Shown here: positions 20,071 through 35,270 of the stretch, piece by piece | How the letters are laid out: each line of letters begins with the position of its first letter | Position numbering within the stretch: position 1 is the first letter of the stretch | Origin: Thermoplasmata archaeon | GTDB lineage: Archaea > Thermoplasmatota > Thermoplasmata > Thermoplasmatales > GCA-001856825 | Assembly (NCBI GenBank): GCA_023256475.1 | Contig: JAGDXP010000012.1 | Span: 62,001 to 126,000, forward strand | Direction: 5' to 3' | DNA: 64,000 nucleotides | Notes under the pieces: model-generated | The model's database searches: none | What the model was told of the DNA's origin: nothing | The model's input: the letters and a program-made list of their open reading frames with translations, nothing else | Position numbers and translations under genes: made by a program

Positions 20071-20457
20071 TTATATCTTTTGGTATCTGCTGGTTATTGT
20101 AGTCTTAAGCCCACCCCTAATATTAAAAGTCCCCCTGACAACAACAAACTTGGGGTTGGCATATCTGACTATATCCTCCAAGATTTTGTTCACAGCATTT
20201 TCCTGAAATATTCCAAGATTTCTATATTTATATAAATATAACTTAAAGCTTTTCAATTCTATAAGTTTCTTATCTGGAATGTAATCTACCTCTATCCTCG
20301 CAAAATCAGGCAAACCCGTTTTTGGGCAAACAGATGTGAATTCATCTGTTTCTATCTTAATAATGGTATTTTTGTCGGAATATGCAAAATCCACAGTATC
20401 TATTGGCCCCAATTCCAAGTTTCTTATATTATCCTGTAGATGTTCGTAAGTACTCAT
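20071..20457 (-). CDS. queF: QueF-family preQ0 reductase (7-cyano-7-deazaguanine reductase)
   Basis: A 128-residue T-fold enzyme. It has the thioimide-forming Cys44 in FTSVCPKTG, Asp51 in LPDFARI, the NADPH-linked motif ELKSFKLY (67-74), and Glu86 in IFQENAV. Bacterial QueF reduces preQ0 to preQ1 for queuosine. Archaea normally make archaeosine from preQ0, and the crenarchaeal QueF-like amidino enzyme has, as I recall it, a degraded ELKS motif; here the motif is intact. The residue before the substrate Glu is Gln85, where Bacillus QueF has His. It is divergent from the gene at 20515. Confidence 0.88.
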   Translation of the reverse strand: MSTYEHLQDNIRNLELGPIDTVDFAYSDKNTIIKIETDEFTSVCPKTGLPDFARIEVDYIPDKKLIELKSFKLYLYKYRNLGIFQENAVNKILEDIVRYANPKFVVVRGTFNIRGGLKTTITSRYQKI

Positions 20458-20514
20458 TCAACTGTAATACTAACTTATGAAAAATTTTTTCCGCTCATTA
20501 AGTATTATGTTTTA

Positions 20515-21438
20515 ATGAATTACAAAATTATCAGCAGAATTTTCGCAATAGCCATAGTGGTAGGCATACTTTACGTTTCCATGAACATAATTCTTCCCTA
20601 TTATTTTCCACAGACACCAAGGGAATCGGGGACGCATGTATATATCGGGGAAATTTACAATGGGAAAACCGAAAATATTAGCAGCGTAGCTTTTGATGTT
20701 TCAATATCCAGGGCGATTTTCAAAAGCGATTACATAACATATTCAGTATTCTCAATATGGGACAGCAACAGGAGTTACGACCAACTAGGCGTCGCTACCA
20801 TTAACGGGGAGGCCTTTGCAACTTATTCCTATACCGAAGTTGTTAATGGTAGCATAAAGTATGTTTTCAATCCAAAGTGGTTCCCATTGGGAAGTGGTGA
20901 TTATAGAGCCTTCATAAACGCATCCAATGGATTTATACATTTCACAATGGATGGAAAAAGTTTTATAGCAAGGACTGGCGCCAAATATTTATCCCTTAGC
21001 AAAAATGAAGATTTACTCAATGGAAGTTATGCAGGAACTACGGTGTATGAGGAAATATACAACTTTAAATGGAAAATGATACCAGTTGACTTCAATTTTA
21101 CGGATATTGAAGCAGATCAATCGCCAATTGTCAAATGGAATTTATTTTTACACAATGTTAGCTTTAATTATTCACAATATGTGTTCCAATTTTATAATAC
21201 AATAAACATTTACGATTCCATACCTTATTTCTTGAAAGGTTATGCATCGTCTAGTTTGAATAATTACATATTCAAAATTTCGGATTTTGATATTCATCTT
21301 TATTCGGGGATAAAATATTCCCTTATGCTGACTGCCTCCAATTACACTTACTATATACTGAATCCTTATAATGACTCTATTGCAAGTTCTGGAAGCATAG
21401 ATTTGCATGGAAATACCTGGCTTAATCTGACCCTATGA
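20515..21438 (+). CDS. Membrane-anchored extracytoplasmic protein, unknown
   Basis: A 307-residue protein starting MNYKIISRIF, with one N-terminal hydrophobic helix (about residues 8-27) that may be a signal anchor. The remainder is polar, Asn/Ser/Tyr-rich and beta-like with many N-x-S/T sites, as in cell-surface glycoproteins of this order. The frame stays open to 20440, but that extension lies across the queF promoter, so the ATG at 20515 is preferred. No domain was recognised. It stands alone just before the L7Ae operon. Confidence 0.75.
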   Translation: MNYKIISRIFAIAIVVGILYVSMNIILPYYFPQTPRESGTHVYIGEIYNGKTENISSVAFDVSISRAIFKSDYITYSVFSIWDSNRSYDQLGVATINGEAFATYSYTEVVNGSIKYVFNPKWFPLGSGDYRAFINASNGFIHFTMDGKSFIARTGAKYLSLSKNEDLLNGSYAGTTVYEEIYNFKWKMIPVDFNFTDIEADQSPIVKWNLFLHNVSFNYSQYVFQFYNTINIYDSIPYFLKGYASSSLNNYIFKISDFDIHLYSGIKYSLMLTASNYTYYILNPYNDSIASSGSIDLHGNTWLNLTL

Positions 21439-21501
21439 AAATATTTATAGTTTAAAGGATTACATTGAAGCCAATGACCGAAATATGAAGGAGGTAAGAA
21501 A

Positions 21502-21867
21502 ATGGTTGGAACATATGTTAAGTTTGAAACTCCAGGTGAGTTAAAGGAAAAGGCTCTGCAGTTAGTAGAAGTATCCAAAGAGACTGGAAAGGTTAAGAAG
21601 GGAACTAACGAAGTTACTAAGGTGGTTGAAAGGGGAGAGGCTAAGCTGGTAATTATTGCCGAAGATGTCGAGCCACCAGAGATAGTGCTTCACCTACCCA
21701 TGCTGTGCGATGAGAAAGGTATACCCTACTTATATGTAGCCAAGAAGGAAGACCTCGGAAAGAGGCTTGATCTAAAAAGTGCCGCCGCAGTAGCTGTTAT
21801 TGAGCCTGGAAATGGGAAGCAGCTGCTAGAAGAATTAACAAATAAGTTTAAAGAAATTAAGAAGTAA
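21502..21867 (+). CDS. rpl7ae: Ribosomal protein L7Ae
   Basis: A 121-residue kink-turn RNA-binding protein. [20 protein letters not shown] and [15 protein letters not shown] are diagnostic. In archaea it is part of the large subunit and also of box C/D and H/ACA guide complexes and RNase P. It opens the conserved archaeal cluster L7Ae-S28e-L24e-Ndk-IF5B. A GGAGGT site precedes the ATG by seven bases, and a TATA-like AAATATTTATAG lies near 21440. Confidence 0.97.
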
Positions 21868-21878
21868 GAGTGATAGAA

Positions 21879-22091
21879 ATGGTAGAAAATGATGCCATTC
21901 CTTGTGAAGTCTTAGAAATAATAGGAAGAACAGGGATGGCTGGTGAGGCTACTCAGGTCAAGATTAAAGTCCTTGCTGGACCTGATCAGGGCAGGGTTCT
22001 TACGAGGAACGTTATGGGTCCTGTTAGAGTTGGGGACATCCTGATGCTGAGGGAGACAGCTAGAGAAGCAAGAAAGCTGTCGGTTAGGTGA
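21879..22091 (+). CDS. rps28e: Ribosomal protein S28e
   Basis: A 70-residue small-subunit protein with the family landmarks [19 protein letters not shown] and the C-terminal [11 protein letters not shown]. The ATG at 21879 is chosen over a GTG three codons earlier because [14 protein letters not shown] matches the family length. It lies 11 bp after L7Ae in the translation cluster. Confidence 0.95.
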
Positions 22092-22096
22092 TCTGA

Positions 22097-22375
22097 ATGG
22101 AAATCAGGTACTGCTCATTTTGCGGCAACAAGATTGAACCAGGAACAGGGAAAATGTTCGTAAGGAAGGATGGAACTATTCTGTTCTTTGATAAATCCAA
22201 GTGTGAAAAAAATTACCTTAAGCTTGGGAGGGAACCAAGGAAGGTAAGGTGGACAAAGGAGTTTGCTGAAACAAAGAGATCCCTTAAGTCAGAGCAGCAG
22301 AATGTTAATGATAAAAATGCCCCTGCAAAGACACCGGAAAGTTCCAATGATAACTTGGAAGATCAGAAGTCCTGA
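22097..22375 (+). CDS. rpl24e: Ribosomal protein L24e, with an altered zinc site
   Basis: A 92-residue large-subunit protein. [18 protein letters not shown] and [10 protein letters not shown] are diagnostic. Family members hold zinc with four Cys (CxxC and CxxxC); here the first Cys of the second pair is Asp32 (FFDKSKC), leaving Cys6, Cys9 and Cys36. The ~25-residue C-terminal tail is Asn-, Ser- and Asp-rich and probably disordered. The ORF lies five bases after S28e. Loss of one zinc ligand does not rule out function, since Asp can bind zinc. Confidence 0.94.
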
Positions 22376-22387
22376 GCAGGTGGTATC

Positions 22388-22828
22388 ATGAGAACTTTGG
22401 TATTAATAAAGCCCGACGGGGTTCAGAGGGCAAAAATAGGTGAAATCATAAGAAGATTTGAAGAAAAAGGGCTGAAGATCGCTGCAATGAAGCTAATGAA
22501 GGTTAACAAAGAGCAGGCGGAAAGGCATTATGCTGTGCATAAAGGGAAACCATTTTACGATTCACTCATAAGCTATATAACATCGGGCCCTGTAGTGGCA
22601 ATGGTGCTGGAAGGCAAGGACGCTATTGAAGTTACGAGAAAGTTAGTTGGGGCTACTAATGGTGCCAAGGCTGAGCCAGGAACAATAAGGGGAGATTTCT
22701 CACTGAGCATTGACTTCAACTTGGTGCATGCAAGTGACTCGGAAAATTCTGCTTTATATGAAATACCCATTTTCTTCGATGAAAAGGAGATCATTGAATA
22801 TAAGAGGGTAGATGAAAATTGGTTGTGA
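22388..22828 (+). CDS. ndk: Nucleoside diphosphate kinase
   Basis: A 146-residue enzyme that transfers the gamma phosphate between nucleoside triphosphates and diphosphates through a phospho-His. LVLIKPDGVQRAKIGEI opens the protein, GATNGAKAEPGTIRGDF follows, and the active-site His lies in NLVHASDSENSA. In this conserved archaeal cluster it sits between L24e and IF5B. A GGTGGTATC stretch precedes the ATG. Confidence 0.97.
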   Translation: MRTLVLIKPDGVQRAKIGEIIRRFEEKGLKIAAMKLMKVNKEQAERHYAVHKGKPFYDSLISYITSGPVVAMVLEGKDAIEVTRKLVGATNGAKAEPGTIRGDFSLSIDFNLVHASDSENSALYEIPIFFDEKEIIEYKRVDENWL

Positions 22829-22834
22829 ATTTAA

Positions 22835-24562
22835 ATGTGGATAAGGCAGCCCATTGTTGGGGTTCTAGGTCATGTAGACCACGGAAAAACATCTCTGCTT
22901 GATAGAATCAGGGGTGGAATGGTCGCCGCCAGGGAGGCTGGCGGTATAACCCAGCATATAGGGGCTACCGAAGTCCCAATCGAAGAGATATATAGAATCT
23001 GTAAAGATATAATCGGTAAGAGAACTTTTAAAATCCCGGGATTGTTGTTTATAGATACACCTGGTCATGAATCATTTAGCTCCCTGAGGATCAGGGGAGG
23101 ATCCATAGCCGATCTTGCAGTATTAGTTATTGATATAAGAGAGGGAATAATGCCCCAAACTAAGGAATCTATTGAGGTTCTCAAGAAATTCAAAACACCT
23201 TTTGTCATAGCAGCCAATAAAGTGGATCTATTGGAGGGATTTTCAGGAGAGAAGGGGGCGTTCCTGATTTCATTGAAAAATATGGACCAGAGGAAGGTAG
23301 AGGTATTAGATGAAAGAATATATGATCTCGCCGGGCAATTATCACGAATAGGTATAAGTGCAGAAAGGTTCGACAGGATTCAAGACTTTACAAGGAACTT
23401 TGCAATAGTTCCGGTCTCCGCGAAGACCGGTTATGGTATTCCAGATTTACTTATGGTTCTTAGCGGCCTGGCCCAAACTTATCTCGAATCGCAGTTAAGG
23501 AACGAAAATGAAACTCCGGAAGGAACTGTATTAGAGGTCAGAGAAGAGAGGGGGATGGGCGAGGTTGCTGACGCCATACTCTACAATGGGATTCTCAGGA
23601 GAGGAGACACTATAATGATTGGCACCATTAATGGAGTTAAGGCCCTGAGAATTAAAGGGATGTTTAAGCCCAAACCCCTTGATGAAATTAGAGATCCAAG
23701 GGATAAGTTTTTGAGCGTAAATGAAGTTAGAGCTGCCTCTGGTGTTAGGTTATTATTACAGGGTGAAGGAGGAATAATACCGGGCAGCCCATTTAAAAAG
23801 GCGGAAGGTGATTTGGTAAAAATAAGAGAAGAAATAGAAAACGCCATAAAGGGATCCTTTAGACTAGAGCCTGAAGGAATTGTGGTTAAGGCAGATACCG
23901 TGGGCAGTCTTGAAGCTTTGGTATACGAATTATCTAGAATAAACATCCCAATTAAGAAAGCTGAAGTAGGTCCTGTCTCAAAAAGGGATTTTACAGATGC
24001 CAAAACAAACAATAAGATCGAAAATAAGATTATCGTAGCCTTTAATGTACCGGTCACGGTGAGGGAAGAGGGCGTAGAAGTCATTGAGGGTAACATAATT
24101 TATGGAATCAAGGATAAGATTGTTGAAGTAATAAACATGTTAAAGCAGAGAGAATTACAAGAAAAAAGAAAGCACATCACCTTCCCTGTAAAAATACAAA
24201 TTCTTCCTGACAGAATCTTTAGGATATCTAAGCCTGCTATTTTTGGGGTGAGAGTATTAGCAGGTACTCTAAGAGTAAAGACGCCTATGATGAGGAGCGA
24301 CGGTAGGGAGCTAGGCCATATAAAGAGCATGAGGAACGGTGACCAGTCTCTTGAGGAGGCAAAGCAGGGTGAAGAAATTGCAGTGGCCATGGACGATGTT
24401 ACTGTTGGCAGACAGGTCAAGGAAAATGACATACTGTATTCTAATTTAAATGAAAGTGATGTTAAGGCGTTGCAGGGGGAGGAACTCACATTAGATGAAA
24501 AGATGGTTTTAGATGAGATTATCAATATTAAAAGGAAGGAAAAGCCCTTCTGGGGTACATAA
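22835..24562 (+). CDS. infB: Translation initiation factor aIF5B (IF2-like GTPase)
   Basis: A 575-residue GTPase that promotes subunit joining and initiator tRNA placement. G1 is GHVDHGKTSLLD at about residue 11, G3 is DTPGHESF, G4 is NKVD, and GGITQHIGATEVP gives switch I. Beta-barrel domains II and IV and the typical GEEIAVAMDDVTVGRQ follow. Its length is normal for archaea, and no intein is seen. It ends the L7Ae cluster. Confidence 0.96.
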   Translation: MWIRQPIVGVLGHVDHGKTSLLDRIRGGMVAAREAGGITQHIGATEVPIEEIYRICKDIIGKRTFKIPGLLFIDTPGHESFSSLRIRGGSIADLAVLVIDIREGIMPQTKESIEVLKKFKTPFVIAANKVDLLEGFSGEKGAFLISLKNMDQRKVEVLDERIYDLAGQLSRIGISAERFDRIQDFTRNFAIVPVSAKTGYGIPDLLMVLSGLAQTYLESQLRNENETPEGTVLEVREERGMGEVADAILYNGILRRGDTIMIGTINGVKALRIKGMFKPKPLDEIRDPRDKFLSVNEVRAASGVRLLLQGEGGIIPGSPFKKAEGDLVKIREEIENAIKGSFRLEPEGIVVKADTVGSLEALVYELSRINIPIKKAEVGPVSKRDFTDAKTNNKIENKIIVAFNVPVTVREEGVEVIEGNIIYGIKDKIVEVINMLKQRELQEKRKHITFPVKIQILPDRIFRISKPAIFGVRVLAGTLRVKTPMMRSDGRELGHIKSMRNGDQSLEEAKQGEEIAVAMDDVTVGRQVKENDILYSNLNESDVKALQGEELTLDEKMVLDEIINIKRKEKPFWGT

Positions 24563-24630
24563 TAATGAATTCAATTTTATCACGGTTGCGTCAGTCATGA
24601 AAAGATTTTATTCTATTATTTATACAGGAA

Positions 24631-24807
24631 ATGATAAAGATGGAGTATCCTGAATATTGTTCATCATGTGGAATAGGGCTAGAAGGAAGGGGTGCAACTT
24701 TCTTTTTATGTCCAAATTGCGGACAGGAAACGATTGCGAGATGTGACAGCTGCAGAGAATTGTCCATAGCCTATGAATGTCCAAAATGTGGCTTCAGGGG
24801 GCCGTGA
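24631..24807 (+). CDS. Zinc-ribbon protein with four CxxC knuckles, upstream of EF-1beta
   Basis: A 58-residue protein. Eight Cys form four CxxC pairs at positions 10/13, 27/30, 38/41 and 50/53 (YCSSCG, LCPNCG, RCDSCR, ECPKCG), enough for two zinc sites. The layout and place directly before EF-1beta match the widespread archaeal small zinc-finger family typified by Haloferax HVO_2753. The start is ATG at 24631 (a second ATG three codons on is possible). The stop lies four bases before the EF-1beta start. Confidence 0.88.
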   Translation: MIKMEYPEYCSSCGIGLEGRGATFFLCPNCGQETIARCDSCRELSIAYECPKCGFRGP

Positions 24808-24811
24808 TAAT

Positions 24812-25081
24812 TTGGGAAAGGTCGCAGCAACAATAAGGGTTATGCCTGAATCTGAGGAAGCTGACATTTTCTCTATTAAGGATAAAATCTCTTCTCTGGT
24901 TAAGGGAGATTATTATATAGGCAGTATAAACATAGAGGATCTAGCCTTTGGTCTCAAGGCAATCAAGCTTGTAGTTGTAATGGATGACAAAGAGGGCTTG
25001 ATGGATAAACTTGAACAGAGCTTAAAGAGTGTTAATGGCGTAGGAGAAGTAGAAGTGGAGGAAGTTTCACTTATTTCATGA
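24812..25081 (+). CDS. Elongation factor aEF-1beta
   Basis: An 89-residue guanine nucleotide exchange factor for EF-1alpha, with GKVAATIRVMPESEEADI at the start and EDLAFGLKAIKLVVVMDD in the middle. The frame has an ATG at 24773, but that lies inside the zinc-ribbon gene and gives a non-family extension. The TTG at 24812 gives the canonical M-GKV start and the usual ~89 residues, so it is preferred. Confidence 0.92.
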   Translation: MGKVAATIRVMPESEEADIFSIKDKISSLVKGDYYIGSINIEDLAFGLKAIKLVVVMDDKEGLMDKLEQSLKSVNGVGEVEVEEVSLIS

Positions 25082-25228
25082 TTTTTGATTCTGAAATTTA
25101 TTAAATGAATTGTGCAAATTTTAACCTTCCCGCTATTATAAAATTAGGGTTATGGGCGTGCTCATAACAATGGTTTAATAGTTAATTCGATTTACAGTCC
25201 GGTATAATCTAATGGAGGTAGTAACAAG

Positions 25229-28099
25229 ATGAGTTGGAAAGCTGGGAAGATCTTAGCACTGGTTGCCATTGCCCTGCTCCTGGCAAGTGGCATGTACTAT
25301 ATGGCAGATGCTCAAGTAAAAGGAGCGAGTCAGGTAAGTTTTGCGTTTATAACCATATCAAATAATGTTCCCATAAGCGGATTAATGGTATATTTAGAAT
25401 CCCCTTCTGGTAATGTACTTCAGACAAATTTAAGTTCACCGTCAGTTGAATTTTCAGCATATCCGGGAAATTATATAATATATATTCCCAGCCAGAAGCT
25501 GAATGGTGAGATTTATAATTATGTAACCATGAATATAGATGTTAATAAGTCTGGGGCATACTATAACGGACAGCAATTGAACTACGTTTCCCTGGAAAAG
25601 TTTCCAGTGAACTCAAATATAATAGTCAAAGTAACCAATGGAGTTCCTCAGTCAGTGTATTCTTACCTTACCACTGGACTTCAACTGCCTTCAGTTCAGA
25701 ACGGGAGCACATTTACTATTAGCACAACCAATATCTCCCAGACAGTGTTTGTCCAGTATAATACTGGTTCTGTTGCCTATTACACCGTAGCCATAACACC
25801 AACAGTTGGTAACAACTATCTCAATATAAGCTTAAGCAATTTAAACGGTATTTCTGGATATGTTACGAGCACAAACGGCTCTGTAATCAAGAATTTGCAG
25901 GTCTCAATATACCAGAATGGAATGCTCTTGGGCAGTCAGACTTTTTCCGGTGGATACTTTCTGTTGACAATGCAGCCTGGTTCCTACTATCTTGTTATAT
26001 CAAGCCCAGGATATCTTCCAACTAGCCTGAATGTTAATGTTCTGAGCAACAGTGGAATTTCATTCCAGACGGTTAAACTTACACCGAGCATCATCCCACA
26101 GACTGAGGTGATGACTTTCTCACAGAACTTTAAATCACTCAAGATTCAGGAGTCAATAACTATAACAAATTCAACAATTCTTCTAACTCTCCCGTATTCA
26201 AATGCAGGATCACTATACGACCAGATGAAGCTGTTGAATATGATAAGCAATGGGAAGAGTACAGTCTGGGAGATAATGAATTATTCAATTCCAACTGAGA
26301 CAGTCAGCAATGTACTGTTCAATTCATATTCCTACAATATTGTAAATTATTCATCACAACTAACTCAATCAAATTACGGTGGGCAATATGGATTTACTTT
26401 CACTTATACTGCCTATTATACACAGGCAATTAATGTGTCCAGCACAAACACTCTCCAGATTTATGTGAACAAGAACGGGGTTTCACAGAATTATATAAAT
26501 TACAATTATATTGTTAATATACCATCAGCATATGAGAGGTCTAATATAATCAACCAAACAGTTGCAACTGTTACCGGTTACACAGGTACTATAAGCATTA
26601 GCAATGCAAACTTCAATGGTTGGTTAACAATTAAGTTAAGCCAGAGGGTAAAACCATCCATAACACTGTCCTCATTAATGTTCAGCTGGAGCGGTTATTT
26701 TGAGTCCCCAATTGTAAATAGTTCAAGCAGCAACTTCACATTTGTTGTACCGGCAAATAGAAACTTTACATTAAACGCATCCAATGTTGCGTTTGATAAT
26801 GTGCTTATGGTTGACAATTACATGCAGATGAAATTTAATTGGAGCATAGCGGGTACAACGCTAACTGGATACAATATTACAGATAATTTACCTGCAGGAA
26901 TATATCATTCCACGTTAATGGTTACAGACGTGGGTGGGAATGTAAATGAGACCAATTTCACAATAATTTCCGATGCTAATACTCCTACCTTCTCACTAAC
27001 AGTTGTACAGGAAGGTAAGACAGTATTCAATAAGACCTCCTCCTCATCCGGAACATATGTACTATGGGTAAATCAGACTGCTCCAGTCTATTTCAACGCC
27101 ATTAGGAGTAAAGATATTTTACCAAACGGCCAGAATAGCAACCTGCCACTATTGCTGAATTGGAACTTCACCGGAACAAAGAGAACGGGTTTGAATGTAA
27201 CGTACACCTTTATAAAACCAACCTTTGGATCTAAATTCCTCTACGTGAATGTGACAGTTGAGAATGCAGCAGGTAATACAATAACATGGAATCTGCAAGT
27301 TCATGTTAATGATACAACCCCACCAATAGCTGCATTTACAATTTACAATTCAACGGGTAAGGCTGTTACATCTGCGAAGGAATATGAGATGTTAACATTC
27401 AACGCATCCAAGTCATTCGCTCCGAATGGAGGATACATAGTATCATACAATTGGACTATATATTATGCCAATGGAACAAAGGCTCCAATAAATGTTGCCT
27501 ACAACATGACTAATGTAACAACAAACATGTCTGTGGTAAAAGTATCCTTTATACAGTATGGAACATTTAAGGTCTCACTTGAAGTAACAGATCAGTCAAA
27601 TCACCATTCCTTTGATAATGTGAGCCTCTTTATATCTGCTGTTAGGCCAGAAGTAGAAATATTGAACGTTACATATCCAAAATCCTTTGAGCAGGGATCA
27701 CCTGCTACCCTAAAGCTAGAATTGAAGAACGTTGGATTGCAGAATGCAAGTCAGTATTACATAACGGTGACATTCAACGGAAAAGTAATTGAAAACAAAT
27801 CCTTTACAACTGTAATCGGTCCAAATAAGGTTATAAATGTAACAATTGTGGTCTATCCGCCAAGCTCTGGCCAGTATACCATGGTAATAAAAGTTTATGC
27901 AGTGGGCCAACCAAGCTTTTTCAATACAAATACTCAGGTAACAAAAGCAGTTTCGGTATCTCAGCCTGCATACCTCCTACCTTTGATAATCGCTGTGGTT
28001 GTTATAGCCATTGGTATTTTGGCATATGCTTACTATAGCTTATCTAGGAGGAAGAAAGAAGGCGGAAAAGAAGAAAAGCAAGTAAGAAAACTTAAATAA
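25229..28099 (+). CDS. Large cell-surface protein with Ig-like domains and C-terminal anchor
   Basis: A 956-residue exported protein. A hydrophobic N-terminus (LALVAIALLLASGMYYMADA) acts as signal peptide or anchor. Residues around 210-280 resemble a carboxypeptidase-regulatory-like beta-sandwich (ISGYVTSTNGSVIKN, then GGYFLLTMQPGSYYL). Around 690-810 is a PKD-like domain (TPPIAAFTIYN, SYNWTIYYANG, VSLEVTDQS), and about 815-905 resembles a CARDB module. A final membrane helix (LIIAVVVIAIGILAYAYY) is followed by a basic cytoplasmic tail. It has very many N-x-S/T sites, as in surface glycoproteins of Thermoplasmatales, which lack a cell wall. Adhesion or a structural surface role is likely; it stands alone. 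Confidence 0.85.
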   Translation: MSWKAGKILALVAIALLLASGMYYMADAQVKGASQVSFAFITISNNVPISGLMVYLESPSGNVLQTNLSSPSVEFSAYPGNYIIYIPSQKLNGEIYNYVTMNIDVNKSGAYYNGQQLNYVSLEKFPVNSNIIVKVTNGVPQSVYSYLTTGLQLPSVQNGSTFTISTTNISQTVFVQYNTGSVAYYTVAITPTVGNNYLNISLSNLNGISGYVTSTNGSVIKNLQVSIYQNGMLLGSQTFSGGYFLLTMQPGSYYLVISSPGYLPTSLNVNVLSNSGISFQTVKLTPSIIPQTEVMTFSQNFKSLKIQESITITNSTILLTLPYSNAGSLYDQMKLLNMISNGKSTVWEIMNYSIPTETVSNVLFNSYSYNIVNYSSQLTQSNYGGQYGFTFTYTAYYTQAINVSSTNTLQIYVNKNGVSQNYINYNYIVNIPSAYERSNIINQTVATVTGYTGTISISNANFNGWLTIKLSQRVKPSITLSSLMFSWSGYFESPIVNSSSSNFTFVVPANRNFTLNASNVAFDNVLMVDNYMQMKFNWSIAGTTLTGYNITDNLPAGIYHSTLMVTDVGGNVNETNFTIISDANTPTFSLTVVQEGKTVFNKTSSSSGTYVLWVNQTAPVYFNAIRSKDILPNGQNSNLPLLLNWNFTGTKRTGLNVTYTFIKPTFGSKFLYVNVTVENAAGNTITWNLQVHVNDTTPPIAAFTIYNSTGKAVTSAKEYEMLTFNASKSFAPNGGYIVSYNWTIYYANGTKAPINVAYNMTNVTTNMSVVKVSFIQYGTFKVSLEVTDQSNHHSFDNVSLFISAVRPEVEILNVTYPKSFEQGSPATLKLELKNVGLQNASQYYITVTFNGKVIENKSFTTVIGPNKVINVTIVVYPPSSGQYTMVIKVYAVGQPSFFNTNTQVTKAVSVSQPAYLLPLIIAVVVIAIGILAYAYYSLSRRKKEGGKEEKQVRKLK

Positions 28100-28111
28100 A
28101 TAATTTTTTTA

Positions 28112-29707
28112 TTATAATTTTTCAGTTATTTCTAATCCCAATGTATCCATGGCATCTTTTAATATCAAATTGAACGCCTTAACTATCTCAAGTCTCCTAT
28201 CTCTATTTTCAGGATCTTTTAGAACGGGGCAATCCCTATAAAACTGATTAAATATTGATGCTAATTCGTAGCTGAAGCGTGCCAATTTATCAGGTCTATA
28301 CGATCTACCTGCCTCTTCCAGAATTTCAGTGTACTCACCCATCTTCTTTATCAGCTCTACTTCTCTTTCCACAAATTTATTATCCCCTCTATGAAGGGAT
28401 TCGGTCTTGTTCAAAATGGAGTTACTTCTCGCGTATGAATACATAATAAAGGGTGCGGATTCTCCTTCGAAATTAAGGGCATCTTCCCAGGTGAAGGTTA
28501 TGGGCTTTTCTGGTGAATATCTAATTATATTGTACCTGATTGCCGAATATCCTATTTTGGTTGCAAGGCTCTTTATGGATTCCTCATCAAGATCTGGATG
28601 CCTTTTTTTCACTTCATCTTCAGCCATACGGACGCTCTCTTCCAGAAGGTCCCTTAAATAAATTACATTACCCCTCCTAGTGCTCATCTTGCCTTCTTTT
28701 GTTATAACATAGGAATAGAATATTACCTTTATATTTTCAATTCCCAGCAACTTAAGTACATATGCAAGGTTCTGGAAATGCAATTTATGATCCTCTCCGA
28801 GTACATCCACTGGAACATCAAAATTTTTTGATTTATATATATGATAGGCTATATCTCTTGTGAAATAGAGTGAAGTCCCATTGCTCCTTTTCAAGTATAT
28901 TTTGTCATTGTTATACTCTATGTATTTGGCTCCATTTTCATCTTTCAAGTAGGGTTCCAGTTTGTCTAAGACCATTTTGACGTCCCCATTTAAGATGAAA
29001 TCACTTTCCCAAACAAATCCATCAAATTTTATACCGATTGAATAGAGATCCTTAAGAACATCTTCCAGCAGTTTCTCGAGCTTGGATCTGGTTGCTTTTA
29101 AGAATTCTCTATCTCCTGTTTCTGCCCTTAGCATGTATTCCTCAATTCTCGCTTTATACTGCTCAATATTTTCGTATACCCTCCTATAAGCTTCTGTGTA
29201 TGGCAAATCCGGAAAGATTTCCATACCAATTAATAGGGCTTCCACCTGGGTGCCAATATCATTCATGTAATACTCTACTCTTACATTGTTTCCCAATCTC
29301 CTCAGGATTCTTGCCACGGTATCCCCAATAATTGAATTTCTAGCCCTTCCAATGTGCAGAGGGCCTGTGGGGTTAGCACTGGTATGTTCTATCAGATATT
29401 TAGGCCCTCCTTCAACTTTTTTAAATTCTCCAGAATTTATGAAGTCAAGCACCATCCTTGAATATTTCTCCGGGTTGAAAACGATATTTACAAATTTTCC
29501 AGCTTTTTGGAATCTTATATTTTCATCATTAAGCTTTTCAATATTTTCACTGGGTATGTCCTGTTTTAATTTCTGGGTATCCCATACAAGGTCTCCGAAT
29601 TTTGGATTTGGTTTATAGATTATTAGTGGATCTTTGATCTGTAGCTCTGCAGCTAATTTTTCTATTTTCTCTCTAGCCAGACCTTCAAAAAACTTTCTTG
29701 GATTCAT
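28112..29707 (-). CDS. argS: Arginyl-tRNA synthetase
   Basis: A class I synthetase of 531 residues that charges tRNA-Arg. The HIGH motif is HIGRARNS and the KMSK motif is KMSTRRG. The C-terminal helical domain includes ARFSYELASIFNQFYRDCPV, the DALR-type anticodon-binding element. The frame is open to 29731, but the ATG at 29707 (MNPRKFFEGL) has GGAG seven bases upstream and follows the DUF72 stop, so it is preferred. It converges on the surface protein gene with a T-rich 12-bp gap. Confidence 0.95.
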   Translation of the reverse strand: MNPRKFFEGLAREKIEKLAAELQIKDPLIIYKPNPKFGDLVWDTQKLKQDIPSENIEKLNDENIRFQKAGKFVNIVFNPEKYSRMVLDFINSGEFKKVEGGPKYLIEHTSANPTGPLHIGRARNSIIGDTVARILRRLGNNVRVEYYMNDIGTQVEALLIGMEIFPDLPYTEAYRRVYENIEQYKARIEEYMLRAETGDREFLKATRSKLEKLLEDVLKDLYSIGIKFDGFVWESDFILNGDVKMVLDKLEPYLKDENGAKYIEYNNDKIYLKRSNGTSLYFTRDIAYHIYKSKNFDVPVDVLGEDHKLHFQNLAYVLKLLGIENIKVIFYSYVITKEGKMSTRRGNVIYLRDLLEESVRMAEDEVKKRHPDLDEESIKSLATKIGYSAIRYNIIRYSPEKPITFTWEDALNFEGESAPFIMYSYARSNSILNKTESLHRGDNKFVEREVELIKKMGEYTEILEEAGRSYRPDKLARFSYELASIFNQFYRDCPVLKDPENRDRRLEIVKAFNLILKDAMDTLGLEITEKL

Positions 29708-29711
29708 AAAA

Positions 29712-30575
29712 TTACTCCATCTCCAGGTCAAAAGATGAAAGGTCTCTTTGATTATAACTCTTTTTATCTATGTTTATGCCCAAAAGTCTAGAAAATTCCA
29801 TTGCGTTTATTGCCGCTTTGGCATACGCATGGTTGTTAAAATAAATGAAAATATCCCCATTCATTCTTTTAACCAGATCTACCCATGGCAAAAGCTCTTC
29901 AACATTGTATAAATAATCATATCTGTTCAGTCTCCCGTCCTCAGTTTCATGCTTAAACCAGATATCATAATTTCTTCCATGAAATCTCACGTAAGAAAAG
30001 TCAGCAGTGGGATAATAGAATGGATTAAATAGTGGCGAATCAACGGATACAAAAGCCACATTATGATCATAAAGTACATCTAGGAAACTCTCCAAAATTC
30101 CTGGGACCAAAAAGCCCTTGTTCCTAATTTCCAAGGAATTTCTGTAATTTTTGACATCTAGGGAATCCAAGAAATTGCTGATCCTTTTGATCACTGAAGG
30201 GTCTTTGTCTGGATTTAAGAATGGGGATAGCTGAATCAAAGCGGCACCAAGCTTTCCTTCCTTTCTGAATGGTTCCAATACATTTTTCTGAAATTCAATA
30301 GCTAAGTCTATGGATTTTCCTCCCAATGCGTCCTGAGAATGCGTAATTTCCTGTGGGTATTTGAAAGAGAACACAAAATTATCAACAGCCCTCGCTTTTC
30401 TAATCCATGATATTACCGTATCCCTTTGAGGAAATGAATAAAATGAAGAGTTAATCTCCGTGGTATTAAAAAATCTGGCATAATAATTGAAAAAGTACCT
30501 CTTATCAAGTCTCTCCGGATAAAATTTCCCAACCCAATCGTCATATTGGAAGCCGGAGCACCCAATGTAAATCAT
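29712..30575 (-). CDS. DUF72 family protein
   Basis: A 287-residue TIM-barrel-like protein. YIGCSGFQYDDWVGKFYPE at the N-terminus and NTTEINSSFYSFP are the family signature, and YVRFHGRNYDIWF with IYFNNHAYAKAA completes it. The molecular function of the family is not established. It lies directly before argS with a four-base gap, so the two are probably co-transcribed. Confidence 0.9.
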   Translation of the reverse strand: MIYIGCSGFQYDDWVGKFYPERLDKRYFFNYYARFFNTTEINSSFYSFPQRDTVISWIRKARAVDNFVFSFKYPQEITHSQDALGGKSIDLAIEFQKNVLEPFRKEGKLGAALIQLSPFLNPDKDPSVIKRISNFLDSLDVKNYRNSLEIRNKGFLVPGILESFLDVLYDHNVAFVSVDSPLFNPFYYPTADFSYVRFHGRNYDIWFKHETEDGRLNRYDYLYNVEELLPWVDLVKRMNGDIFIYFNNHAYAKAAINAMEFSRLLGINIDKKSYNQRDLSSFDLEME

Positions 30576-30635
30576 TAATTAGATATCAAATTTAAAAGAT
30601 AATTATTTTATGCATGTCGCATATCTATTAAGGCA

Positions 30636-30869
30636 ATGGGCGATTCAATCATAAATCTGGACAATATGGATCAGGCTCTAGGTTTCAATATAAGAAAGGA
30701 AGTTTACCTATATTTAACTGCAAAAATATTGTTTGATAATGGTAGCGGTGATCCTGATAAACTCCAAAAATATATGAATGAAAGAATTGATATTATCGAA
30801 AATATAGCTAAGGTGAAGAGGCCATTCAGAGTTGTTGAAAACGGAAAAACATTGATGGAGGTGACATAG
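30636..30869 (+). CDS. Hypothetical protein before a CBS-domain gene
   Basis: A 77-residue, mostly helical, charged protein without membrane helices or Cys. No family was recognised. Its stop is directly followed by the ATG of the CBS/zinc-ribbon gene, whose ribosome binding site (GGAGGTGA) lies in its last codons. The tight link suggests co-translation and possibly a complex with the CBS protein. Confidence 0.7.
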   Translation: MGDSIINLDNMDQALGFNIRKEVYLYLTAKILFDNGSGDPDKLQKYMNERIDIIENIAKVKRPFRVVENGKTLMEVT

Positions 30870-31400
30870 ATGAAAGAAATTAAAGTGGAGGAAGTGATGA
30901 CAAGAAATCCAATAATCATTGAAAAAGGATTGAACATAAAGGATGCTGCAGACCTAATGAGAAGGGAAAGGATAGGCTCTCTAATTGTTAGATTAACCGG
31001 TAATGAATATGGAATAATTACTGAAAGAGATATAATATACAAGGTAGTAGCCGAAGGTTTAGATCCAGTATTGACAAAGGTAGAAAGCGTCATGACATAT
31101 CCAATAATAAGTATAAGTCCAAATTTAAATTTGGAAGATGCAGCCAATATTATGTGGAAGCATAGAATCAGGAGACTTCCAGTCATCAGCAATGGAATAA
31201 TAATTGGAATACTTACAGAAAATGATATAATCAGGCTTTCCCCCGGTCTTATAGAAGTGACTAGGGAAGTATTTGAACAAACGCAGCCACTGGTATCCGG
31301 TGTAAGGGGATATTGTGATAAGTGCAGAAAGTATGATGAGAATTTGATATATAAGGCGGGTAAATACTATTGCCAGGAATGCTTCCTTAAATTGGAATAG
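30870..31400 (+). CDS. CBS-pair protein with C-terminal zinc ribbon
   Basis: A 176-residue protein. Two CBS motifs are visible: VEEVMTRNPIIIEKG with GIITERDIIYKV, and VESVMTYPIISISP with GILTENDIIRL. A C-terminal CDKC...CQEC module (about residues 145-170) should bind zinc. CBS pairs usually sense adenine nucleotides or SAM; a zinc ribbon may add nucleic-acid or protein binding. It lies six bases before the TGT gene, in an operon that ends with tRNA-Cys. Confidence 0.9.
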   Translation: MKEIKVEEVMTRNPIIIEKGLNIKDAADLMRRERIGSLIVRLTGNEYGIITERDIIYKVVAEGLDPVLTKVESVMTYPIISISPNLNLEDAANIMWKHRIRRLPVISNGIIIGILTENDIIRLSPGLIEVTREVFEQTQPLVSGVRGYCDKCRKYDENLIYKAGKYYCQECFLKLE

Positions 31401-31406
31401 ATTTCT

Positions 31407-32471
31407 ATGAGTGATAAAATTCTCAAAACAAAGCATGGAGAGGTAGAACTCCCCATATTTATGCCTGTTGCCACAAGGGGTTTTATAAAAGCAATGCCAT
31501 GGAAAAAGGTAAGTGAAATGGGGATCAAGGTGGTAATATCAAACTCAGTTCATCTATCTATCACTCCAGGTCTGGAAAAAATACAAGCCAGAGGAGGAAT
31601 AAATGGCTATACTGGATTTGAAGGTTCTTATTTCACAGATTCAGGAGGATTTCAGATTATAAGAGAGGAACTTGTGGATATTGATGATGAGGGAATAATT
31701 TTTAAGGATAAGAAATCCGGGATCCAGATAAAGGTAACCCCAGAAAGGAGCTCAGAGATTCAGGAAATAATTAATTCGGACGTTGCTATGATGCTTGATG
31801 ATTGTGCACCATATGGATCACCTAGAGAAAGATATGAACTCTCTGTTCTAAGAACATACAATTGGGGGAAGATATTCTTAGAGAGAAAGATCCATGGTCA
31901 GTTGAGATTTTCCATATTCCAGGGAGGATATGATTATGATCTTAGAAAGAAATCTCTGGAACTCATGCTTACTCTCCCCTCTGATGGAATTGCCATAGGG
32001 GGATTAAAAATAGGCGAACCAAAGGAAGTTACCGATAAGATAATTGATTACGTAGTTCCATTGATTCCAGAGGATATGCCCATTTATTTAATGGGCGTTG
32101 GAGACCCATTGTCCATATATGAATATTCTTTAAAGGGAATAGATATATTTGATTCAACTTATCCAACTAGGAATGCAAGACATGGTTATGCATTAACCTC
32201 CAAGGGACCTATAAATCTGAAGGCCGCTAAGTACTCTTTGGATTTTAATCCTATAGAGCAGGGATGTGAATGTGAGGCTTGCAGATATTATCACAGAAGC
32301 GGTCTCAGGGAACTGCTGAAGAGCGAAGATCCACAATTTCATTACCTAGTAACGGTACACAATTTAACATTCATGCAAAACCTAATGAGGGCATTAAGGG
32401 AAAACCCGGATAAGGCAAAAGAAATGGTAAAACATTATGTAAAGGATCCTAATAACCAGATTCAAGGGTAG
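31407..32471 (+). CDS. tgt: tRNA-guanine transglycosylase, bacterial type
   Basis: A 354-residue base-exchange enzyme. The acid/base Asp lies in FTDSGGFQ, the substrate loop in SIFQGGYDYDLR and GGLKIGEP, and the nucleophile Asp in DIFDSTYPTRNARHG. The zinc site is CECEAC plus the His of LVTVHNLTF. These are hallmarks of the bacterial tRNA-guanine34 enzyme. Archaeal ArcTGT is longer, has a PUA domain, and reads DSGSFQ and FDSASYALYA at these places. Bacterial TGT inserts preQ1 at the wobble base for queuosine. Its stop codon lies inside the acceptor stem of tRNA-Cys. Confidence 0.93.
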   Translation: MSDKILKTKHGEVELPIFMPVATRGFIKAMPWKKVSEMGIKVVISNSVHLSITPGLEKIQARGGINGYTGFEGSYFTDSGGFQIIREELVDIDDEGIIFKDKKSGIQIKVTPERSSEIQEIINSDVAMMLDDCAPYGSPRERYELSVLRTYNWGKIFLERKIHGQLRFSIFQGGYDYDLRKKSLELMLTLPSDGIAIGGLKIGEPKEVTDKIIDYVVPLIPEDMPIYLMGVGDPLSIYEYSLKGIDIFDSTYPTRNARHGYALTSKGPINLKAAKYSLDFNPIEQGCECEACRYYHRSGLRELLKSEDPQFHYLVTVHNLTFMQNLMRALRENPDKAKEMVKHYVKDPNNQIQG

Positions 32472-32537
32472 GTGGCAGAGCGGCGATGCGCGGGACTGCA
32501 GATCCCGTTTATTGGGGTTCGAATCCCCACCTACCCT
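32466..32537 (+). tRNA. tRNA-Cys (GCA)
   Basis: A 72-nt cloverleaf. Acceptor GGGTAGG pairs with CCTACCC, the anticodon stem CGGGA/TCCCG holds the loop CTGCAGA with anticodon GCA, and the T arm is TGGGG-TTCGAAT-CCCCA. The discriminator is T, as expected for tRNA-Cys. No intron. The first six bases overlap the last codons of tgt, so the tRNA must be cut from a tgt transcript or has its own promoter inside tgt. Confidence 0.95.
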
Positions 32538-32702
32538 CTTTTGAATATCATCATTATCTGTCGCATGAGAATTGATAATTGTCCGAGAAATTTTTTTAAG
32601 CAGACAGTTCAATGCGATTTAATCATATAGAATTTTGATTAATGAAAAATTATAAATATTTCTACTTGAATAATGAATCGGTAATAAAAATTGCTCTTCA
32701 AA

Positions 32703-33613: not shown

Positions 33614-34387
33614 TCAAATGAAATTGCTATTAGCGATTTCTGAAATCTCAATTAAAAAATGTTTATCCATTCCATATAACCAAAGAAATTCAATAATTAT
33701 TTCTATTTGAAGATCTACTAATTTATTCGAACTGTATTTTATCATATCAAATGGAAGTATCGTTCTATACAGTATCAAATTTTTACCGCTCCCTTTGTAC
33801 CTGCATTTTGATTCTCCATTTACTATCTTGACCCATTCTTCATCTCTTATCTTTCCTAGCGATCTATTCAGAATGCATTCTGACGAAATTCTAACAAAAT
33901 TCCAAGAAAAGGATCTACCTCTGAATTTCAAAATTGTTCCGAAATCAAAAATCTTAAAATCTATATTCTCCAAATAAACCTTCCTTGCCGAATCCTTTGA
34001 AAATTTCGAATAATCAGATGATAGGAATTCTGAAATTACAGATCTAATCTTCTCCTCAGCAGGTCTCACCCTTGAAATGTAAAGATATTCTTTTGAGAAC
34101 ATACCCCGCAACGGAATATAGGTTTCCGAGGAAGCATATTCCAAAACATAAATGCCTTTAATAGAATTTATTGCATTGCAAAGGCTTTGGCAATCTTCAT
34201 ATTCTGCCTCGATTAAATTTCCTGAGGCTCTAACAAAAGAGTCAGTCCTGGACGAAGCATAAATTTTCTTAATGCCCATCTTATCAGATAATTTCTTAAT
34301 TTCGCCCATAACTGTTCTAAGTCCAGGTTGGTATTGTAGGCCGTGAAAAGATGAATCATAACCTATTTTGATTAAACAAAACCTCAT
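33614..34387 (-). CDS. truA: tRNA pseudouridine synthase A
   Basis: A 257-residue enzyme that makes pseudouridine at positions 38-40 of the tRNA anticodon arm. The catalytic Asp49 lies in YASSRTDSFVRA, with IGYDSSFHGLQYQ and GLRTVMGEI before it. FRGRSFSWNFVR is the family's C-terminal motif. The gene starts inside the last 32 bases of the AGT-endonuclease V gene, on the same strand, so it is probably translated from the same message. The C-terminal ~35 residues are not recognisable. Confidence 0.9.
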   Translation of the reverse strand: MRFCLIKIGYDSSFHGLQYQPGLRTVMGEIKKLSDKMGIKKIYASSRTDSFVRASGNLIEAEYEDCQSLCNAINSIKGIYVLEYASSETYIPLRGMFSKEYLYISRVRPAEEKIRSVISEFLSSDYSKFSKDSARKVYLENIDFKIFDFGTILKFRGRSFSWNFVRISSECILNRSLGKIRDEEWVKIVNGESKCRYKGSGKNLILYRTILPFDMIKYSSNKLVDLQIEIIIEFLWLYGMDKHFLIEISEIANSNFI

Positions 34388-35270
34388 CCCTATACCTCCT
34401 GGAAAATCTGTCCGGTATTTTTGTTATGGGATCATATTTGATGTTATCTCTTATAACTCTTTCAAGCAATTGCAGACCTTCAAAATTAAATCCATATCCT
34501 ATGGATAAATAGGATCTTCCACTTATCATACCTACGGGTTCTCCATCGACGAGGATAGTATTTTTGAAAACTGTGCCAGTAAGCAATTTTTTAGCCGAAC
34601 CTATGGTTACTGAGTTCTTCAAAAATCCTGATACTGTAGCTAATCCTCTCTTATCTCTATGTATCATACCATTCCCATCTATAATATTGAATTTATCATG
34701 TCTTATTAAATCCATGATAATTTCCCCCTCCCTGAGAAATAGATAATTTGGTATGTATGGAGATTTTGCCCGCTTTATGCTAAATTCAACGGTTCTTTCC
34801 TCCAAATCAAACGCTGCCCCTATACCGGTACGGCCTTCATAAGAAACATCAATTATATTAAAACCTCTGGGTTCAATTTCATTTATCAAATTTTCATCAT
34901 TTTCGATGCCTTTTAAAAAATTCCTAAACTTGATTAGCGGGTAGTCGGTTCTAAAGTCCCTAAATCTTACATTTTGGAAATCCTGAACTTTGCCGTTATT
35001 TATCTTTATTCCCTCGCTCCTAAGTCTTCTAATCTTTTCACTGACACCCAATGGATGCGTGAACCCTCCTACAGACCCATCGTTTCTTACAACCCTATGA
35101 CAGGGTACCTTAATTGGATCGTTATTTTCTGACAGCATTTCACCCACGGCCCTAGATGCTATAATATCTCCAAGTGCCACGGCAATATCTCCATAAGTAG
35201 TTACAAAGCCTTCCGGTATCTGGGCTACCAGTTTTTCAAATCTATCATAAATATCTGGTATCTCAATCAT
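34356..35270 (-). CDS. Fused O6-alkylguanine-DNA alkyltransferase / endonuclease V
   Basis: A 304-residue two-domain DNA repair protein. Residues 1-95 are the alkyltransferase active-site domain, with acceptor Cys in KVPCHRVVRNDGSVGGF and helix-turn-helix Arg in ASRAVGEML. It lacks the usual N-terminal half of AGT. Residues 110-304 are endonuclease V, with catalytic DVSYEG, YIPNYLFLREG and IDGNGMIHRDKRGLA, and the C-terminal YLSIGYGF. A bifunctional protein of this kind was described from Ferroplasma acidarmanus. One half removes alkyl groups; the other nicks near deaminated adenine (inosine). Its 5' end overlaps the RNase Z gene by four bases. Confidence 0.94.
   Translation of the reverse strand: MIEIPDIYDRFEKLVAQIPEGFVTTYGDIAVALGDIIASRAVGEMLSENNDPIKVPCHRVVRNDGSVGGFTHPLGVSEKIRRLRSEGIKINNGKVQDFQNVRFRDFRTDYPLIKFRNFLKGIENDENLINEIEPRGFNIIDVSYEGRTGIGAAFDLEERTVEFSIKRAKSPYIPNYLFLREGEIIMDLIRHDKFNIIDGNGMIHRDKRGLATVSGFLKNSVTIGSAKKLLTGTVFKNTILVDGEPVGMISGRSYLSIGYGFNFEGLQLLERVIRDNIKYDPITKIPDRFSRRYRDEVLFNQNRL

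Follow-up and report, generated by a model that had tools for sequence, protein, structure and literature searches.

The window that we analyzed, a stretch of 64,000 nucleotides, is part of a 189-kb contig in a draft MAG (1.39 Mb in 28 contigs, ∼89% complete) and carries two intact ORFs that concern us here. The first, of 354 aa, encodes a bacterial-type tRNA-guanine(34) transglycosylase (TGT; 31407-32471, plus strand), and the second, of 128 aa, encodes a unimodular QueF (20071-20457, minus strand), a predicted preQ0 reductase that would make preQ1. The host is an acid-loving, Thermoplasmatales-type archaeon whose family, called f1 below, consists of I-plasma and relatives. Immediately upstream of TGT is a gene for a CBS-pair protein (30870-31400, plus strand), which is a conserved neighbor across f1 and whose possible role in queuosine (Q) formation is conjectural. 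Directly downstream is tRNA-Cys(GCA) (32466-32538, plus strand), which is not a Q target. The 5′ part of this tRNA gene shares sequence with the 3′ end of the TGT ORF, whose stop codon is contained in the opening bases of the tRNA gene, and a tRNA-Cys follows TGT in 8/9 f1 loci.

The stretch leading from QueF to TGT (20440-31192) is made up of archaeal housekeeping genes, which we named by sequence inspection. The complete gene order is QueF, L7Ae-like, L24e-like, NDK, IF2/eIF5B-like, EF1-beta-like, a large surface protein, ArgRS, DUF72, CBS, and TGT, and it is identical in relatives, including Thermoplasmatales archaeon I-plasma, that are represented by independent MAGs from other sites. Beyond the tRNA we observed two further ORFs on the minus strand, a divergent TruA-like pseudouridine synthase (33614-34387; 56 bits against a cut-off of 143) and a single ORF that fuses an AGT-type DNA-binding domain to an endonuclease V domain (34356-35270).

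Identity and active-site residues of the window TGT and QueF

The window TGT passes the curated equivalog family TIGR00430 (334.6 bits; cut-off, 306.75) and lies far below the cut-off of the archaeosine-TGT family TIGR00432 (109 bits; cut-off, 350). Pfam returned TGT as its only domain, with no PUA domain found. The first-pass annotation had described a bacterial-type enzyme of 354 residues lacking PUA, with the motifs DSGGFQ, GGLKIGEP, and CECEAC; all of these motifs are present, and the family assignment agrees. Based on the TIGR00432 score, the length, and the lack of PUA, we rejected the possibility that this protein is an ArcTGT.

The closest solved relatives are the TGTs of T. maritima and Z. 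mobilis, and an AlphaFold model of the window protein (pLDDT 90) gave TM scores of 0.91-0.92 on the bacterial structures 2ash and 1q2r. Along with the fold, the window TGT shares with its bacterial counterparts (Z. mobilis 1pud/1ozm and T. maritima 2ash) residues Asp102/Asp280, Ser103, Asp156, Cys158, Gln203, Leu231, Glu235, and Met260 as well as the zinc ligands Cys318/320/323/His349 (Z. mobilis numbering). All catalytic, base-recognition, and zinc residues are invariant in the nine f1 sequences. However, identity to the bacterial enzymes is 33-39%, the first ∼20 N-terminal residues are missing, and the gene adjoins tRNA-Cys rather than QueA. With respect to the incoming base, Cys at position 158 marks the preQ1 type, and Gly occupies position 233 in queuine-using eukaryotic TGTs (PMC3660597). 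The window TGT has Cys158 and Ile at position 233; hence preQ1 is favored over queuine as its substrate, and we rejected a queuine-type TGT on the same two residues.

The dimer interface has diverged. In bacterial TGT, the four aromatic residues Phe92/Trp326/Tyr330/His333 form the hot spot of the homodimer (PMC5395182). Position 326 is Tyr. In 9/9 f1 sequences, Tyr330 is replaced by Gly, Lys, Met, or Ala and His333 by Glu, whereas most other Thermoplasmatota TGTs retain both Tyr330 and His333. Together with the missing N-terminal stretch, the loss of these two residues may alter the standard mode of dimerization in the f1 enzyme.

The window QueF scores 140 bits against TIGR03139, for which the cut-off is 86.9. 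It contains Cys44, Asp51, Glu86, and the motif E67-LKSFKL-Y74, matching every feature that defines the family in B. subtilis numbering, namely Cys55, Asp62, Glu97, and the motif with Glu78 (PMC5372742). The earlier statement that Cys44, Asp51, and ELKSFKLY are kept was thus borne out. As in other unimodular QueF enzymes (TIGR03139; B. subtilis 4f8b), the Cys, Asp, Glu, and NADPH motif E(S/L)K(S/A)hK(L/Y)(Y/F/W) are all shared; the differences from B. subtilis QueF are an archaeal host and Gln in place of His96. This Gln85 is specific to f1, while most QueF have His there, and the substitution could possibly affect the second reduction step. A crenarchaeal QueF-like protein, which acts as archaeosine synthase, was rejected because the NADPH motif is present and the match to QueF-L 5jyx is much weaker than that to B. 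subtilis QueF (28 bits, E 1e-5, versus 95 bits).

Queuosine and archaeosine genes in the host genome

Outside the window, the host genome encodes QueA (C5:60302-61354; 290 bits, cut-off 267) and QueG (C18, ending at 182684; 236 bits, cut-off 200). In an alignment with the B. subtilis and S. thermophilus enzymes, QueG retains the surroundings of the catalytic Asp along with both sets of Fe-S cysteines. QueC and QueD are adjacent on C17, QueE is on C18, and a gene for a GCYH-IB/MptA-type cyclohydrolase is on C4. For archaeosine, ArcTGT (C5:45983-47779) scores 454 bits against a cut-off of 350, and a Thermoplasma-type ArcS is at C3:18439-19902. QueE, QueD, and ArcS are distant archaeal members of their families and fall below the curated cut-offs. 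All seven genes that the first-pass annotation had proposed looking for in the whole genome (ArcTGT, ArcS, queC, queE, queD, queA, and queG) were found. The preQ0 supply, QueF, TGT, QueA, and QueG are present in one genome, and the Q pathway looks complete at the gene level.

QueH was found neither in the host genome nor in any f1 genome. Since QueG is cobalamin-dependent, we also note CobS, which is present in 4/6 f1 genomes (the host included) and in 0/4 of the f2 genomes tested; CobS also occurs in f4, a QueH user, so this pattern is consistent with QueG use and is no proof of it.

Candidate substrates are present as well. U33-G34-U35 is present in tRNA-His, tRNA-Asn, and a tRNA-Tyr that carries an intron, and with tRNA-Asp(GUC), which is cut by a contig end, all four GUN tRNAs were found. 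The Tyr and Asp tRNAs were detected by ARAGORN with introns allowed and by pattern search; ARAGORN without introns misses both. With its substrate tRNA genes present, the window TGT is predicted to exchange G34 for preQ1 in GUN tRNAs.

We consider it very probable that the window contributes two steps to a full queuosine pathway, beside which a separate archaeosine branch runs. By homology, GTP would be converted to preQ0 by the cyclohydrolase, QueD, QueE, and QueC, and this common supply would feed archaeosine as well. QueF would reduce preQ0 to preQ1, TGT would place preQ1 at position 34 of the GUN-anticodon tRNAs for Asp, Asn, His, and Tyr in place of guanine, QueA would add an epoxycyclopentane derived from SAM, and QueG, which depends on cobalamin and Fe-S clusters, would turn epoxyqueuosine into queuosine. 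In the other branch, ArcTGT (TIGR00432) would insert preQ0 at position 15, which ArcS would then carry on to archaeosine. What we show directly is the genes and the families to which they belong, together with their catalytic residues, the synteny across f1, the co-occurrence, and the trees; the reactions, their order, the presence of Q34 in the cell and its coexistence there with archaeosine, and the meaning of the interface changes are inferred. The initial proposal that this organism may make preQ1 or Q at the wobble position alongside archaeosine is thus supported at the level of genes, with QueA and QueG found in the same genome as ArcTGT and ArcS; its further suggestion, lateral gain, fared differently, as described below.

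Distribution in Thermoplasmatota and origin of the f1 genes

TGT is above cut-off in 60/390 Thermoplasmatota genomes. Within the order of the host, it is present in every genome of f1 (6/6), f2 (7/7), and f4 (2/2) and in 0/33 genomes of f3. A QueA match accompanies TGT in 56 of the 60 positive genomes, and QueH or QueG is found in 50 of these 56. QueH occurs in 44 TGT-positive genomes, none of them in f1, and QueG is above cut-off, among the TGT-positive genomes, solely in the six f1 genomes (6/6). The reductase of the last step, where found, is therefore QueH everywhere except in f1, which appears to have given up cobalamin-free QueH in favor of QueG, a cobalamin-dependent enzyme. QueF matches came from f1, f2, f22, f45, and others. 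No QueF match was obtained in f4, f11, f12, f19, f24, f28, or f41, which have TGT and QueA, mostly with QueH; salvage of preQ1 or an unknown preQ0 reductase are options for these families.

The four genomes with TGT and without QueA (G196, G249, G094, and G014; TGTs L085, L086, L088, and L089) constitute one distant family, f33, and also lack QueF, QueG, and QueH. Their TGTs carry an insertion that follows GGFQ, are one residue shorter at Leu231, and show Lys at the position of Glu235. In the tree they fall with bacterial TGTs, next to one from an Arthrobacter plasmid (85/92). These enzymes may serve base salvage with a different specificity.

In the unrooted TGT tree, f1 groups with f2+f4 (99/76). 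The QueA tree, also unrooted, independently gave the same grouping (98/91) with bacteria set apart (100/98), and the unrooted concatenation of both genes raised its support to 100/96. Placement of the window TGT inside an archaeosine clade had been named at the outset as an outcome that would count against the proposal; we looked for it, and it did not occur. Since f1 TGT and QueA group with two families of the same order, a recent lateral gain, in which f1 TGT (and QueA and QueG) came directly from bacteria or a DPANN symbiont, is unlikely. A clade of f1 TGT with bacteria is tolerated when TGT is taken alone (AU p 0.245), but the same constraint gave p 0.053 with TGT and QueA concatenated, such that a bacterial tie is disfavored, borderline with both genes. 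A DPANN source was raised by one pattern search, in which Woesearchaeota were the nearest named matches outside the family. DPANN TGTs, however, form a separate clade and differ in the residues of the pocket (Cys103, mostly Met158, and mostly Gln286), and a DPANN origin is disfavored by the tree and these residues alike. QueG did not appear in any TGT-positive genome of the phylum outside f1, which speaks for lateral gain, and QueG itself was thus probably a separate gain. On the trees, we favor descent within the order, accompanied by rapid change in f1 and by loss in f3. A lateral gain by the host itself finds no support in this grouping or in the occurrence of TGT in 60 genomes of the phylum.

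In the Woesearchaeota and Nanoarchaeota TGTs (L179-L197), Ser103 is mostly replaced by Cys and Cys158 mostly by Met (Val in one), and Arg286 gives way to Gln, Lys, or Met.

Pathway endpoint and significance

A second alternative, to which we give slightly less credence than to lateral gain, is that the pathway ends before Q or acts on another base, with diverged TGT, QueF, and QueA yielding preQ1-34 or a novel derivative. The f1 stems are long in both the TGT tree (1.41) and the QueA tree (1.32), and the Gln in place of QueF His96 and the altered TGT dimer hot spot point in the same direction. Changed or lost activity of f1 TGT and QueF is possible on these grounds, despite the invariance of the TGT catalytic residues throughout the family. 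Against a pathway that stops short of Q, intact QueA and QueG above cut-off are present in 6/6 f1 genomes, and the base-recognition residues of TGT are all kept. Lastly, an artifact of binning or assembly that misplaced bacterial genes in an archaeal draft MAG of 28 contigs and ∼89% completeness is extremely improbable, since the constant place of TGT and QueF among translation genes across f1, here inside a 189-kb contig and in independent MAGs alike, argues against contamination, and in GC content and codon usage TGT, QueF, QueA, and QueG all fall inside the spread of the genome.

A queuosine pathway in archaea was previously predicted. In 34 archaeal genomes, of which 12 are DPANN, Castelle et al. 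(2021, PMC8204110) described Q genes, either complete or partial, and they predicted the pathway in DPANN and Methanosarcinales, with a figure on both groups. The first-pass view that archaea never make preQ1 was thus already doubtful. QueA and TGT in archaea are common to that work and ours, and both are predictions. The DPANN and Methanosarcinales prediction involves a QueH-like enzyme and co-localized genes, whereas the host analyzed here has QueG, QueF, and scattered genes; unlike in the earlier prediction, we also checked archaeosine genes in the same genome. In the open-access literature on Q in Thermoplasmata or Aciduliprofundum, we found no earlier account of the present case. What is new here is the spread in Thermoplasmatota, the QueG variant, and the diverged TGT dimer interface. 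Queuosine is still described as bacterial and eukaryotic, with archaeosine as its archaeal counterpart (PMC5485725; PMC13329287, 2026).

Taken together with the co-occurring archaeosine genes, our preferred reading of a complete queuosine pathway suggests that the host may be among the few organisms making both modifications. A fuller picture, which we put forward tentatively and hold at somewhat below even chance, is that f1 cells carry archaeosine-15 and queuosine-34 together, drawn from one preQ0 pool, with a TGT that works without the standard homodimer and with QueG having replaced the QueH of the phylum. Intact sets for both modifications let one ask how a cell divides one preQ0 pool between two positions, a question that is directly testable given the closed genomes available for several relatives in a neighboring family. 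They also raise the question of whether Q decoding evolved early in Thermoplasmatota.
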